Of a DNA stretch of 64,000 nucleotides, positions 23,118-28,968 are shown piece by piece. The first letter of the stretch is position 1; each line of letters starts with the position of its first letter. The notes under the pieces are model-generated. The model made no database searches and had not been told where the DNA came from. It saw nothing but the letters and a program-made list of their open reading frames with translations. Source of the DNA: Candidatus Woesearchaeota archaeon (GTDB taxonomy: Archaea > Nanobdellota > Nanobdellia > Woesearchaeales > JACPBO01). A program made the position numbers and the translations under genes. The stretch spans positions 62,001 to 126,000 of the forward strand of contig JAUSCS010000010.1 in assembly GCA_030651135.1 (NCBI GenBank). The letters are read 5' to 3'.

Positions 23118-24302
23118 TTATTTTACTTTCAAACTATCAATCAAAATATCTCTCACTTTCTCAAGATCTTCCTCATTGACAGCCCTTCTGAGCTGCATTC
23201 TTGCCGATGCCTTTGCAAGCCTCATCAACCCGGCGATCAATCTTGGCGAAACATCCATTACAAAGCTTCTTTCCCGCTCTTTCATATCGCCTGCAAATTC
23301 AACAATCTTCTTCTGAAGCTCCATGGGAAATTCAACATCTATCTTCTTGCAATAGCTGATGTATTCCTTTATAAAAGAAATGTCTGATGAGCTTAATTCC
23401 TTTGTTTTCTGCTTTACCATTTTTTTAGCAATATCAATGAAGCGCCTTAATGACGGCTTTCTGATGATAAAGACAATATGAAACCTTGTCAGCAGCGCAG
23501 CATCAAGAGGAATCTGCTTTCTTAACAGTTCAATATCTGTGCTTGTAAACCTGTCTTTAAGGGGATTTGCAGTTGCCAAAACTTTTACATCAGCATTCAG
23601 CTGGATGCTTTTTCCGGCTTTGTCGTAGCTTATGAAGCCTTTTTCCATTGCATTGTAAAGATAGCCAAGATCATCTTTCCTTATAAGATTAAGCTCGTCT
23701 ATGCAGCAGATGCCGCCATTGGATTTCGGCAATAATCCCATGATCAGTTCATCGCCTTTGAACATCAACCCTAATCCTGCTCCTGAAATGCCTGATCCCA
23801 ATCCAAAGCTTGCAGCAGGGCTTAATTCTGCAGCTGCTCTTACTATGTCTGTTTTGCCAGTTGCCGGATCGCCTAAAAGAAGAATGTGCACTCTTTCATC
23901 AGCAAAGAGCTGCAAAGAAACAGCTTCCTTTATTCTGTGCAATCCGACAATATTTGGGGCAATAAGCTCAATCATCACATCCGGCGCATTCTCTGAAAAT
24001 TCCTTGAATGCCTTCTTTTTGATCTGGCTGACGATTTTTTCATTTATTTCCTTGATAAATTCATCCTGGGAATCCTGCAGGATTGTAAAATGCCGGCGCT
24101 TTAATATCGAGTCAGAAACTCCCAGCGTGAGGCTGGAAAAAGCTGCTTTCTTTAATTTAACCAGTCTTTTCAGTTTCTTGGCCTCATTGGCATAAAGAAA
24201 TTCTTCAAGCTCTTCTATCTTTTCTTTTTCCTTTTTTGATAAAGGCCTTAATAGTTTGAATAAGTCGATGAACCACATAAAGAGAGCAAACATATTGCTC
24301 AT
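23118..24302 (-). CDS. MCM-like AAA+ ATPase lacking the N-terminal DNA-binding domain
   Basis: About 394 residues from ATG 24302; ATGs at 24293 and 24278 are also possible. After about 110 helical residues comes an MCM-type core: IAPNIVGLHRIKEAVSLQLF near 114-133, Walker A GDPATGKT 144-151, SGISGAGLG near 170 (pre-sensor loop), Walker B ICCIDE 198-203, ATANP sensor 1 near 243-247, arginine finger LLTRF at 270-274, then the C-terminal lid with SPRLIAGLMRLAKASARM. Archaeal MCM helicases have about 250 extra N-terminal residues with a zinc-binding and OB fold; here they are absent. It cannot be the only MCM unless DNA contact is provided by a partner. Confidence 0.82.
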   Translation of the reverse strand: MSNMFALFMWFIDLFKLLRPLSKKEKEKIEELEEFLYANEAKKLKRLVKLKKAAFSSLTLGVSDSILKRRHFTILQDSQDEFIKEINEKIVSQIKKKAFKEFSENAPDVMIELIAPNIVGLHRIKEAVSLQLFADERVHILLLGDPATGKTDIVRAAAELSPAASFGLGSGISGAGLGLMFKGDELIMGLLPKSNGGICCIDELNLIRKDDLGYLYNAMEKGFISYDKAGKSIQLNADVKVLATANPLKDRFTSTDIELLRKQIPLDAALLTRFHIVFIIRKPSLRRFIDIAKKMVKQKTKELSSSDISFIKEYISYCKKIDVEFPMELQKKIVEFAGDMKERERSFVMDVSPRLIAGLMRLAKASARMQLRRAVNEEDLEKVRDILIDSLKVK

Positions 24303-24381
24303 TATAAATATTTCTATTCTGGAGTGGCAATAAGTGTTTTTTTGAGAAAGATTTATATATTCAAGCATATAAGACGATAGT

Positions 24382-24609
24382 ATGGACTTCAATAGACTAT
24401 TGAAAAAGCTGATGTTCTGGAAGAAAGAGCCTGAAAAGATCATAATTCTTAAAGTGCCTGAAAAGCAGAAGCCAAAGCTGATTGATCCGAGAAAACTAAG
24501 GATCCATTACATCTGCGCAAGATGCAAGTACAAGTTCAGCAGGAATCCCAACATGGATGTTGATGTCTGCCCGTATTGCGGGAGAAAGGGCACGGTTGAA
24601 GAGCAATAA
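24382..24609 (+). CDS. Small zinc-ribbon protein with basic leader
   Basis: 75 residues. Basic amphipathic N-terminus (NRLLKKLMFWKKEPEK) and a C-terminal zinc ribbon: CARC near 49-52 and CPYC near 65-68, with RKLRIHYI before it. A TATA-like TTTATATATTC lies about 25 bases upstream. Divergent from the MCM-like gene. Likely binds nucleic acid or a protein complex; no specific function is known to me. Confidence 0.75.
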   Translation: MDFNRLLKKLMFWKKEPEKIIILKVPEKQKPKLIDPRKLRIHYICARCKYKFSRNPNMDVDVCPYCGRKGTVEEQ

Positions 24610-24612
24610 GCA

Positions 24613-25014
24613 TTAAAAGATCAAAACTGCTTCTTCTGGATTTAAAATCCTGATTTTATTGTATTCTTTCAATTTCAGAAGATGTTTATCCTGGCTTACA
24701 ATAAAATCTGCTTCTCCATAAATAGCTGCTTCTACAAACTTATCATCTTCAGGGTCGTCATTTACCGCTTTTATTGCTGTTGTTGGATCAACCATTACTG
24801 AATTTTCTATGATGAGATTTTTCCATTCTTCAATTAACTCTTCATCCATGGAAATCTTGAAGCTTCGGAGAGCTTTTACGAACTCTTCAACAAGTTTAGG
24901 GGAACTCACTAATTGAAATCTTCCCTTTCTCCATTTGTCTATGATTTGAGAGCAAAAATTGCCTTCCCAAAATATGCCTGAGATAAAGACATTTGTGTCT
25001 AAAACTACTCTCAT
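24613..25014 (-). CDS. PIN-domain ribonuclease toxin (COG1569 type)
   Basis: 133 residues. PIN fold with acidic residues in VVLDTNVFISG (Asp6), the central SSPKLVEEFVKAL (Glu), DPEDDKFVEAA (Asp pair near 90-92), and the terminal ADFIVSQDKHLL (Asp). All four metal-ligand positions look intact, so an active metal-dependent RNase is expected. Start overlaps the stop of the AbrB gene by four bases, the standard antitoxin-toxin layout. Confidence 0.88.
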   Translation of the reverse strand: MRVVLDTNVFISGIFWEGNFCSQIIDKWRKGRFQLVSSPKLVEEFVKALRSFKISMDEELIEEWKNLIIENSVMVDPTTAIKAVNDDPEDDKFVEAAIYGEADFIVSQDKHLLKLKEYNKIRILNPEEAVLIF

Positions 25015-25271
25015 TTTTTTCTAACTTCTCTTATGGCTTCTTCTACATCTGTTTCTTTTACGCCTTTCTTTTTTGCAAACTCTCTTGTTTTTTTAAGTAG
25101 TTTATCTATTCCGTTAAAAGAAGGCATCTCCAGCTTTTTGAGAACAATGGTGTTGTCTTCCCCGATTACTATAAACTTCTCTCCTTCGTGTATCTTAAGC
25201 TTATCCCTTAAACTTTGTGGGATGACTACCTGCCCTCTTGAGCTCACACTTGTTATTTCGATATTTTCCAT
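25011..25271 (-). CDS. AbrB/MazE-type antitoxin
   Basis: 86 residues. SpoVT-AbrB swapped-hairpin fold at the N-terminus: TSVSSRGQVVIPQSLRDKLKI, GEKFIVIGEDNTIVLKK. The C-terminal 35 residues are a charged helix that would wrap around the PIN toxin. Preceded by a GGAGG ribosome binding site. The palindrome TAAGATTATCTTA at 25302-25314, just downstream of the TATA, is its likely operator. Confidence 0.88.
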   Translation of the reverse strand: MENIEITSVSSRGQVVIPQSLRDKLKIHEGEKFIVIGEDNTIVLKKLEMPSFNGIDKLLKKTREFAKKKGVKETDVEEAIREVRKK

Positions 25272-25445: not shown

Positions 25446-25811
25446 CTAGCTCTTTTCCAGAATAATTATCTTCCCATTATACGCGACATAAATAACTTCA
25501 TCGCCTTCTGAAAGCTCAAGATCAGACGCAGAATCAAATGTTTCAAAGCTCACAGAGTCCATGATCTGCATTTTATTGTCCTGCTTTGATATTACCTGGG
25601 CTCTTTTCCTCGGTATGTCAACTTCCTCAAGATTCTCATGCGAAGCAAAAACAGCAACCTGGCTGTCCTTTTCTATAATGCCTTCCATCTCAACTTTGTT
25701 TTTGGTATGGCAGTGGGTGCCTACTGTAACGAGCTCCATTCTCTTGACCTTGTAGGGCTTGTTCCTGTAAAGAATGCACGTTCCAGGCCTTAATTCCTTG
25801 ACATTGACCAT
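25446..25811 (-). CDS. eif5a: Translation factor aIF5A without the hypusine lysine
   Basis: 121 residues from ATG 25811 (MVNVKELRPG), with the TATA-like TTTTTAAACAA about 20 bases upstream. Two beta domains: the SH3-like half with GTCILYRNKPYKVKRME and the OB half with MQIMDSVSFETFD and GDEVIYVAYNGK. aIF5A rescues ribosomes at difficult peptide bonds using a hypusine on the lysine of the G-K-H-G loop. Here the aligned loop is VTVGTHCHTKNKV, so that lysine is threonine (codon ACC) and the next Gly is Cys. The alignment needs no gap. Either the factor works unmodified, another lysine is used, or this is a divergent paralogue. Confidence 0.85.
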   Translation of the reverse strand: MVNVKELRPGTCILYRNKPYKVKRMELVTVGTHCHTKNKVEMEGIIEKDSQVAVFASHENLEEVDIPRKRAQVISKQDNKMQIMDSVSFETFDSASDLELSEGDEVIYVAYNGKIIILEKS

Positions 25812-25869
25812 AAAAAGTGGTAATCTTGGTTTGTTTAAAAAGATTTCTGAAAACAAAAATAAGAGTGCA

Positions 25870-26080
25870 GCAAAAGCGCCATTTGTGGCGGTGCGACGGA
25901 CAAAATTTCTGTGAAATTTTGTCCTTGCTCGGCATCCCGTAGGGAGCGTCCCCAGCCTCGCCGCACGCCACCATGGCGCTGACGAGCCGGGGGTTGTCCC
26001 TTACGGGGTGGCTCGTAGCACAAGCGAACGAAGTGAGCTTGGGCGTCAGCCGCCAAAGTGGTGGCGTGCGAGAAAGAATA
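25870..26080. ncRNA. GC-rich structured island, candidate non-coding RNA
   Basis: A block of about 200 bases, far richer in G+C than its surroundings, in the divergent gap (25812-26153) between aIF5A and fba. Paired segments: GGACAAAATTTC with GAAATTTTGTCC (hairpin, 3-base loop), GTGGCGG near 25880 with CCGCACGCCAC near 25965, GCTGACG with CGTCAGC, ACGAGCC with GGCTCGT nested inside, and CCC TTAC GGGG. A plus-strand TATA-like GTTTAAAAAG lies at 25831-25840. It lacks SRP (GGAAGGGAGCAG) and RNase P (GAGGAAAGTCC) signatures. RNA of unknown class or a mobile palindromic element. Confidence 0.45.
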
Positions 26081-26101
26081 TTTGACATACTTTAGACTAA
26101 T

Positions 26102-27517: not shown

Positions 27518-28112
27518 GATATACGCTTCAATATTGTCGTTAAGGAAACAGGATGTAGAGAGAAAGCTGAAAAAAGTACTTAAAAAAATAAAGGGCGTGC
27601 ATGTCGATATAATGGACGGCAAGTTTGTTCCCAACACCACTTTATTTAATCCTGCTTTTGTAAATTCATTGCAATTGCCTTTATTCAAGGATGTCCATCT
27701 GATGGTAAAAAGCCCTGAAAAGCACATAAAGTATTATATTGCAGCTGGCGCAAATACAATTGACGTGCATGCCGAGTCAACAAGATATATTCTAAGGATA
27801 ATAAAGGAAATAAAGGGCAGCAATGTCAAGGCAGCGATTGTGCTTAACCCGGAGACAAAGATTGAGAAGATCAAAAAATACATTCCAATGGTTGACGAAG
27901 TCCTTGTGATGACTGTGCATCCTGGATTTGCAGGCCAGAAGCTAATAACTTCAGTGATCCCAAAAATAAAGAAACTAAAGCAGATCAGGGAAAAGGAAAA
28001 ACTGAATTTCAGAATAAAGGTTGACGGCGGCATTAAGAGCACTCATATAAAGATGCTTGAAAAAGCAGGTGCAGACATTCTTGTGATGGGAAGCGCATTG
28101 TTTGGGAAATAA
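27510..28112 (+). CDS. rpe: Ribulose-phosphate 3-epimerase
   Basis: About 200 residues from ATG 27510 (MAEIYASIL). TIM-barrel with the metal and phosphate motifs HVDIMDGKFVPNTT, DVHLMVKSPEKHI, DVHAEST, MTVHPGFAGQ and VDGGI near the C-terminus; the two catalytic Asp residues are present. Interconverts ribulose and xylulose 5-phosphate. The stop is one base before the dinD ATG. Together with RpiB and transketolase it gives the non-oxidative pentose-phosphate branch; no transaldolase is visible in the window. Confidence 0.93.
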   Translation: MAEIYASILSLRKQDVERKLKKVLKKIKGVHVDIMDGKFVPNTTLFNPAFVNSLQLPLFKDVHLMVKSPEKHIKYYIAAGANTIDVHAESTRYILRIIKEIKGSNVKAAIVLNPETKIEKIKKYIPMVDEVLVMTVHPGFAGQKLITSVIPKIKKLKQIREKEKLNFRIKVDGGIKSTHIKMLEKAGADILVMGSALFGK

Positions 28113-28113
28113 A

Positions 28114-28968
28114 ATGAAAAGAGAGATTATCCAAAAACTGCAAAAATCTTTCGAGGATTATGCTCAAAAAGCAGATGGCATCGAATTCTGGTTTGCGCGC
28201 GACTTGCAGATGTTGCTGGATTATGATGATTGGAGAAACTTTGTGAATGTGTTGGAAAAGGCAAAAATAGCCTGCAAAAACTCTGGTCAAGAAATCCCAG
28301 ACCATTTCGTTGAGGTCACCAAAAAGGTCAAGATAGGCTCCGAAGCAGAAAGGGAAATAGACGATATCATGCTCACCAGATATGCCTGCTATCTTATTGC
28401 GCAGAACGGTGATCCCAGAAAAGAGCAGATTGCATTTGCGCAAAGCTATTTTGCAGTACAAACCAGAAAGCAGGAATTAATTGAAGAAAGAATCGCATTG
28501 GTTGAAAGGTTGACTGCAAGGCAAAAATTAGTCGCATCAGAAACCGAATTGTCAAAATTGATTTATGAAAGAGGAGTGGATGACGATGGTTTTGCAAGGA
28601 TAAGAAGCAAAGGGGATGAGGCCTTATTTGGAGGGTTTACTACCTCTCAGATGAAAAATAAGCTTAAAATACATCCGAGCAGGCCATTAGCGGATTTCCT
28701 CCCCACTATCACTATAACTGCAAAAAATCTTGCTGCAGAGATTACTAATTTTAATGTTAAGAAAGATGACCTGAAAGGAGAAACAGATATAACTGTCGAG
28801 CACATAAAGAATAATGCTGATGTAAGGAACCTTCTTGCGAAGAGTGATATCAGTCCCGAAAAACTTCCGCCTGAAGAAGACATCAAAAAGCTAGAAAGGA
28901 AAGTTAAAAAAGATGAAAAATTGATTGGGAAATTATCAAAAAGGATGCCGAGAAGGGCAGAATCATAG
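28114..28968 (+). CDS. dinD: DNA-damage-inducible protein D (DinD)
   Basis: 284 residues from ATG 28114. Matches bacterial DinD: a BRO-N-like first half (WFARDLQMLLDYDDWRNFVNVLEKAKIAC, RYACYLIAQNGDPRKEQIAFAQSYFAVQTRKQE) and a second half with ARIRSKGDEALFGG. Escherichia coli DinD is an SOS gene that inhibits RecA filaments. Here it sits in frame with the operon, one base after rpe and 84 bases before transketolase, an odd place for a repair gene. It may target RadA (inference). Its GC and codon use are similar to its neighbours, so any transfer is not recent. Confidence 0.85.
   Translation: MKREIIQKLQKSFEDYAQKADGIEFWFARDLQMLLDYDDWRNFVNVLEKAKIACKNSGQEIPDHFVEVTKKVKIGSEAEREIDDIMLTRYACYLIAQNGDPRKEQIAFAQSYFAVQTRKQELIEERIALVERLTARQKLVASETELSKLIYERGVDDDGFARIRSKGDEALFGGFTTSQMKNKLKIHPSRPLADFLPTITITAKNLAAEITNFNVKKDDLKGETDITVEHIKNNADVRNLLAKSDISPEKLPPEEDIKKLERKVKKDEKLIGKLSKRMPRRAES

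Follow-up and report, generated by a model that had tools for sequence, protein, structure and literature searches.

A threonine-tip aIF5A paralogue without the hypusine lysine in Woesearchaeales

A Thr-tip relative of aIF5A and its loop

We examined a 64,000-nt stretch of DNA from a Candidatus Woesearchaeota archaeon (GCA_030651135.1, contig JAUSCS010000010.1, positions 62,001 to 126,000; hereafter the window), the minus strand of which carries at positions 25446-25811 a gene for a paralogue of the archaeal translation factor aIF5A. The gene begins with ATG and encodes 121 aa with the aIF5A/EF-P fold over the full length, a KOW/SH3-like domain (residues about 1-66) being followed by an OB domain (about 67-121). 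Published descriptions of IF5A present the hypusine lysine as strictly conserved and required for function (PMC5178350, PMC6105217). The original prediction for this locus, made from the DNA letters, placed a threonine encoded by ACC at that position within a gap-free loop, and both codon reading and alignment with proteins of solved structure bore this out. The β3-β4 loop (25701-25721, minus strand; codons GGC ACC CAC TGC CAT ACC AAA) reads G31-T32-H33-C34-H35-T36-K37 in place of GKHG(H/S)xK, the Thr32 codon ACC (25716-25718, minus strand) falls in the hypusine-lysine column, and phmmer paired VGTHCHTKNK without gaps with PGKHGSAKAR of P. horikoshii and M. jannaschii aIF5A. Judged from its sequence, the protein has no acceptor lysine and hence cannot be a substrate of deoxyhypusine synthase (DHS) at the hypusine position. 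With canonical aIF5A (PRK03999 / TIGR00037) it shares the two-domain fold, a collinear sequence, loop residues G31, H33, H35 and K37 and, in the OB domain, M84-D85 and E90, whereas it has S28, P30 and G34 replaced, is 28% identical to the canonical aIF5A of its own genome and is hit by the aIF5A family models at scores far below both curated cut-offs (65.6 bits against 138 for NCBIfam NF003076 and 44.6 bits against 75.45 for TIGR00037).

The gene is a member of a conserved subfamily whose replacement loop is invariant, something that the original prediction had not foreseen. A second, low-scoring aIF5A-like gene was present in 11 of 99 relatives sampled in a family-balanced manner (the window genome counted), and a profile built from these paralogues was used to scan 371 genomes of the phylum, with more than 100 bits taken as a strong match. 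Full-length Thr-type proteins scored 105-201 bits and carried the loop GTH[S/M/T/C]H[S/T]K; ordinary aIF5A scored 55-96 bits and read GKHG in every copy extracted. Across 48 distinct full-length paralogues, loop residues G, T, H, H and K were invariant (48/48) and position 36 was always Ser or Thr, and GKHG was invariant in 65/65 canonical copies. In window numbering the paralogue changes are S28 to V/I, P30 to V/Y/C/A, K32 to T and G34 to S/M/T/C, which means that three positions with little or no variation in canonical copies, S28, P30 and G34, have been lost as well. With a median pairwise identity of 43% among the paralogues, only seven of the 125 alignment columns are invariant, and the loop accounts for five of these; this pattern indicates replacement of the loop followed by conservation, and not erosion.

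In a maximum-likelihood tree computed with the posterior mean site frequency model (116 rows), every Thr copy lies on one side of a branch with support of 100/99. This tree is unrooted; rooting with non-DPANN archaea places the Thr clade among DPANN sequences, on a long stem (1.2) and with weak forks nearby. Nei-Gojobori ratios of non-synonymous to synonymous substitution (dN/dS) of 0.05-0.16 in the closest pairs, with a median of 0.21 for pairs with dS <2, indicate purifying selection, and the tip threonine of the 48 paralogues is written as ACC (17), ACG (17), ACT (12) or ACA (2). Purifying selection, the open frame kept in dozens of assemblies and this synonymous variation at the tip codon rule out a pseudogene or an assembly error. 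The original prediction had itself named a side paralogue and an assembly error as alternatives: the former is what we found, whereas the latter is contradicted by the recurrence of the same Thr across independent assemblies, in 48 distinct full-length homologues. To the extent that sequence can tell, one archaeal branch has evolved an aIF5A relative unable to carry an otherwise essential modification.

Hypusination in the host and distribution of the paralogue

From the missing lysine a loss of hypusination in the organism had been suggested earlier, and a search for a second aIF5A and for DHS had been proposed as the check, with a canonical GKHG copy elsewhere as the finding that would speak against loss. 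Both genes are present. The window genome (1.415 Mb in 13 contigs, estimated 100% complete) encodes a canonical aIF5A with a PGKHGHSK loop (our locus G000:C9:123066-123440; 154 bits, above the curated cut-off), the translation of which reads SKPGKHGHSKAR, and one DHS (G000:C6:526622-527464; PF01916, E=3.5e-103). Because both are encoded in the same genome, hypusination in this organism is almost certainly intact; the window gene, taken alone, has no lysine and would speak for loss, but next to a PGKHGHSK aIF5A and a DHS the chance of such a loss is negligible. It is also very unlikely that both genes are contamination, since among paralogue genomes that are at least 90% complete canonical aIF5A was found in 17/18 and DHS in 18/18. 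Over all 29 paralogue genomes the counts are 25 for canonical aIF5A and 28 for DHS. For annotation this carries a warning, in that aIF5A searches in these genomes may pick the wrong copy and produce a false loss of hypusination.

A modification of another kind would offer a different fate for the loop: Thr32 or Ser/Thr36 could be modified by an unknown enzyme, which would make the protein a new type of modified factor. The invariance of the Thr and the restriction of position 36 to Ser or Thr would fit such a role, and EF-P is an example of a factor whose tip residue and modification can be swapped (PMC6544042). However, the neighbourhoods contain no conserved linked enzyme and a second DHS copy is not enriched with the paralogue (2/11 vs 11/88, p=0.63), and we regard this explanation as improbable. 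A second DHS as dedicated modifier of the paralogue was rejected for the same lack of enrichment, although such a copy is present in several genomes. Seven Woesearchaeal genomes (G229, G247, G346, G368, G370, G375 and G051 in our numbering) carry a second DHS-family gene that is longer (about 355-390 aa), more divergent and unlinked to the paralogue.

Strong profile matches came from about 26 genomes, and every one of these belongs to the same order as the window, of which about 200 genomes had been sampled; the paralogue occurs in about 13% of the sampled genomes of the order and in 12/87 families. None of the other genomes of the class, roughly 170, gave a Thr-type match in the same scan. 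A named genome collection of 84,980 species added about 40 further records, nearly all labelled 'Candidatus Woesearchaeota' or 'Nanoarchaeota', and one single-cell assembly labelled Altiarchaeales (WOR_SM1_SCG). The Thr-tip copy of the latter (our L079, 6001-6372) groups with a Woesearchaeal copy (G067) with support of 100/96. With four aIF5A-like pieces in this 2.5-Mb assembly, the copy probably reflects contamination or transfer. The viral contigs searched contained no relative, and a viral origin was rejected on that ground. In the open-access papers searched we found no account of such a paralogue, and the conserved Thr-tip subfamily is apparently undescribed so far.

Predicted structure and possible role on the ribosome

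An AlphaFold2 model of the Thr-tip protein, computed from an 11-row alignment, reached a pLDDT of 86 and has the collinear two-domain architecture, KOW/SH3-like and OB, of the aIF5A family. Foldseek matched it to 1iz6 (E 3e-9), VIA Z scores to archaeal aIF5A were 13.6-14.6 (14.6 to 1bkb), and the full-length matches at Z 11.7-15 were to aIF5A, eIF5A and EF-P, some of them chains bound to ribosomes. On balance, we read the protein as a Woesearchaeales aIF5A paralogue that is likely hypusine-independent at the ribosomal exit (E) site, as a functional parallel to EfpL. Following a duplication, it would have retained the two-domain fold and loop residues G31, H33, H35 and K37 and lost the S-x-P-G-K-H-G hypusination motif, leaving hypusination to the cell's canonical aIF5A and DHS, and it most likely still sits at the E site beside the P-site tRNA, acting without hypusine. 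There, its own loop might help with some of the arrest sequences, in the manner of bacterial EfpL; alternatively, the protein might hold or stabilise ribosomes without stimulating the peptidyl-transferase centre. The E site is our best guess because the region under the tightest constraint is the loop that in eIF5A contacts the P-site tRNA, and because EfpL is unmodified yet works on ribosomes. Paralogy, the invariant Thr, purifying selection, the fold and coexistence with the hypusination genes are shown by the data, and ribosome binding, the E-site position, the absence of any other modification and the physiological role are inferred. The more specific proposal that a dedicated Woesearchaeales paralogue acts on the ribosome through its invariant GTHxH(S/T)K loop without hypusine, as a separate archaeal invention, seems to us a tentative one, a little short of an even call. 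If hypusine-independent action is true, aIF5A-type E-site factors would be able to work without the modification; and a Thr-only aIF5A-like lineage beside the normal factor is a natural experiment on loop and fold without hypusine.

EfpL (YeiP; PDB 8s8u), a paralogue of EF-P, acts on ribosomes although its loop tip carries no modification (PMC11611912), and the model aligns to it at Z 11.9. Like the Thr-tip protein, it forms its own clade beside the modified factor and has a different tip, probably unmodified in the Thr-tip protein too, and coexistence with the canonical factor and its modifying enzyme is equally seen in the near-complete archaeal genomes given above. EfpL is, however, defined by an extended, Arg-tipped loop of >7 residues (PMC11611912) and has the three-domain architecture of bacterial EF-P, whereas the paralogue is an archaeal protein of two domains with a loop of unchanged length and Thr at the tip. 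The two are parallel and not homologous as a subfamily.

Ribosomes can also hold the eIF5A fold without hypusine, as yeast 80S binds non-modified eIF5A (PDB 5dc3; PMC11063288, Stm1-bound 80S), and the model aligns to 5dc3 at Z 11.8. What is bound in those complexes is ordinary eIF5A that is not yet, or not at all, modified, and not a dedicated paralogue. Since non-hypusinated eIF5A occurs on idle yeast ribosomes, the chief rival is ribosome silencing or hibernation, in which the paralogue would occupy the E site of idle ribosomes and compete with hypusinated aIF5A and E-site tRNA without stimulating peptide-bond formation. Occurrence of eIF5A on dormant yeast and egg ribosomes, with one yeast structure lacking hypusine (PMC11063288), alignment of the model to those ribosome-bound chains and loss of the lysine from an otherwise kept fold would all suit a competitor. 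A plain competitor would nevertheless need no replacement loop as its most conserved part, and no hibernation gene was recognised among the annotated neighbours; we therefore consider hibernation unlikely, though worth keeping in view.

The aIF5A fold may equally have left the ribosome, as in fungal Hex1, and serve for example as an RNA-binding, RNA-processing or structural protein. Hex1 also arose by duplication of an eIF5A-type gene and sets a precedent for a non-translational descendant (PMC6371581), and canonical aIF5A binds RNA, with a reported RNase activity that is hypusine-independent (PMC9599864). But Hex1 is a peroxisomal, crystal-forming protein with a targeting signal, its structural match to the model (1khi, Z 9.6) is weaker than those of aIF5A, eIF5A and EF-P, the paralogue has no extra domain, and the P-site-tRNA-facing loop of eIF5A, with H33, H35 and K37 kept, remains its top conserved feature. 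Such repurposing appears to us unlikely, and somewhat less probable than hibernation.

Several observations weigh against a hypusine-independent E-site factor. Losses of the gene have occurred: G001, a genome of the same genus (96% complete), lacks the paralogue, and in G081 (L185 640-837 on G081:C38) a remnant survives in which only the OB domain can be read, the loop having disappeared along with the KOW domain; from this patchy distribution it follows that the Thr-tip gene is dispensable. The N-domain is less basic, with a mean net charge of +1.6 in paralogues vs +3.3 in canonical copies and 0 in the window protein, and all genomes used are drafts, mostly metagenome or single-cell assemblies. 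Gene context is informative in one clade: at 12 loci an RsuA-type pseudouridine synthase gene (PF00849; TIGR00093 over its cut-off) lies 3-55 bp downstream on the same strand, usually with RNase HII next. This supports an RNA or ribosome context for the paralogue in that one lineage only, because genomes with the paralogue do not have the synthase more often than those without it (3/11 vs 41/88, p=0.34); an order-wide association was accordingly dismissed.

Surroundings of the gene

No universal operon surrounds the paralogue across the neighbourhoods compared, and in the window it stands alone, with a PIN/AbrB pair downstream and divergent sugar-phosphate genes upstream. A TATA-like box, TTTTTAAA, at 25834-25841 on the minus strand, 23-30 nt upstream of the ATG, is consistent with a leaderless archaeal promoter and may serve as such. 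Between the paralogue and the divergent aldolase gene lies a GC-rich, structured, dispersed repeat of 228 bp (25868-26095) that is not part of the factor; it folds strongly (z -4.55), matched no Rfam family, and is present in about four near-full copies in the window genome and at least two in G001, which is of the same genus, with shorter fragments in other places.

The pair just downstream (24613-25271) encodes a PIN_3-domain protein and an AbrB/MazE-type DNA-binding protein with a 4-bp overlap and resembles a VapBC toxin-antitoxin system. The MCM-type ATPase encoded at 23118-24443 is only 441 aa long; it has the P-loop and lid domains, and no match to the MCM N-terminal domain was obtained. 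On the other side, a BRO-N domain protein (28102-28968) is inserted between the ribulose-phosphate epimerase and transketolase genes.
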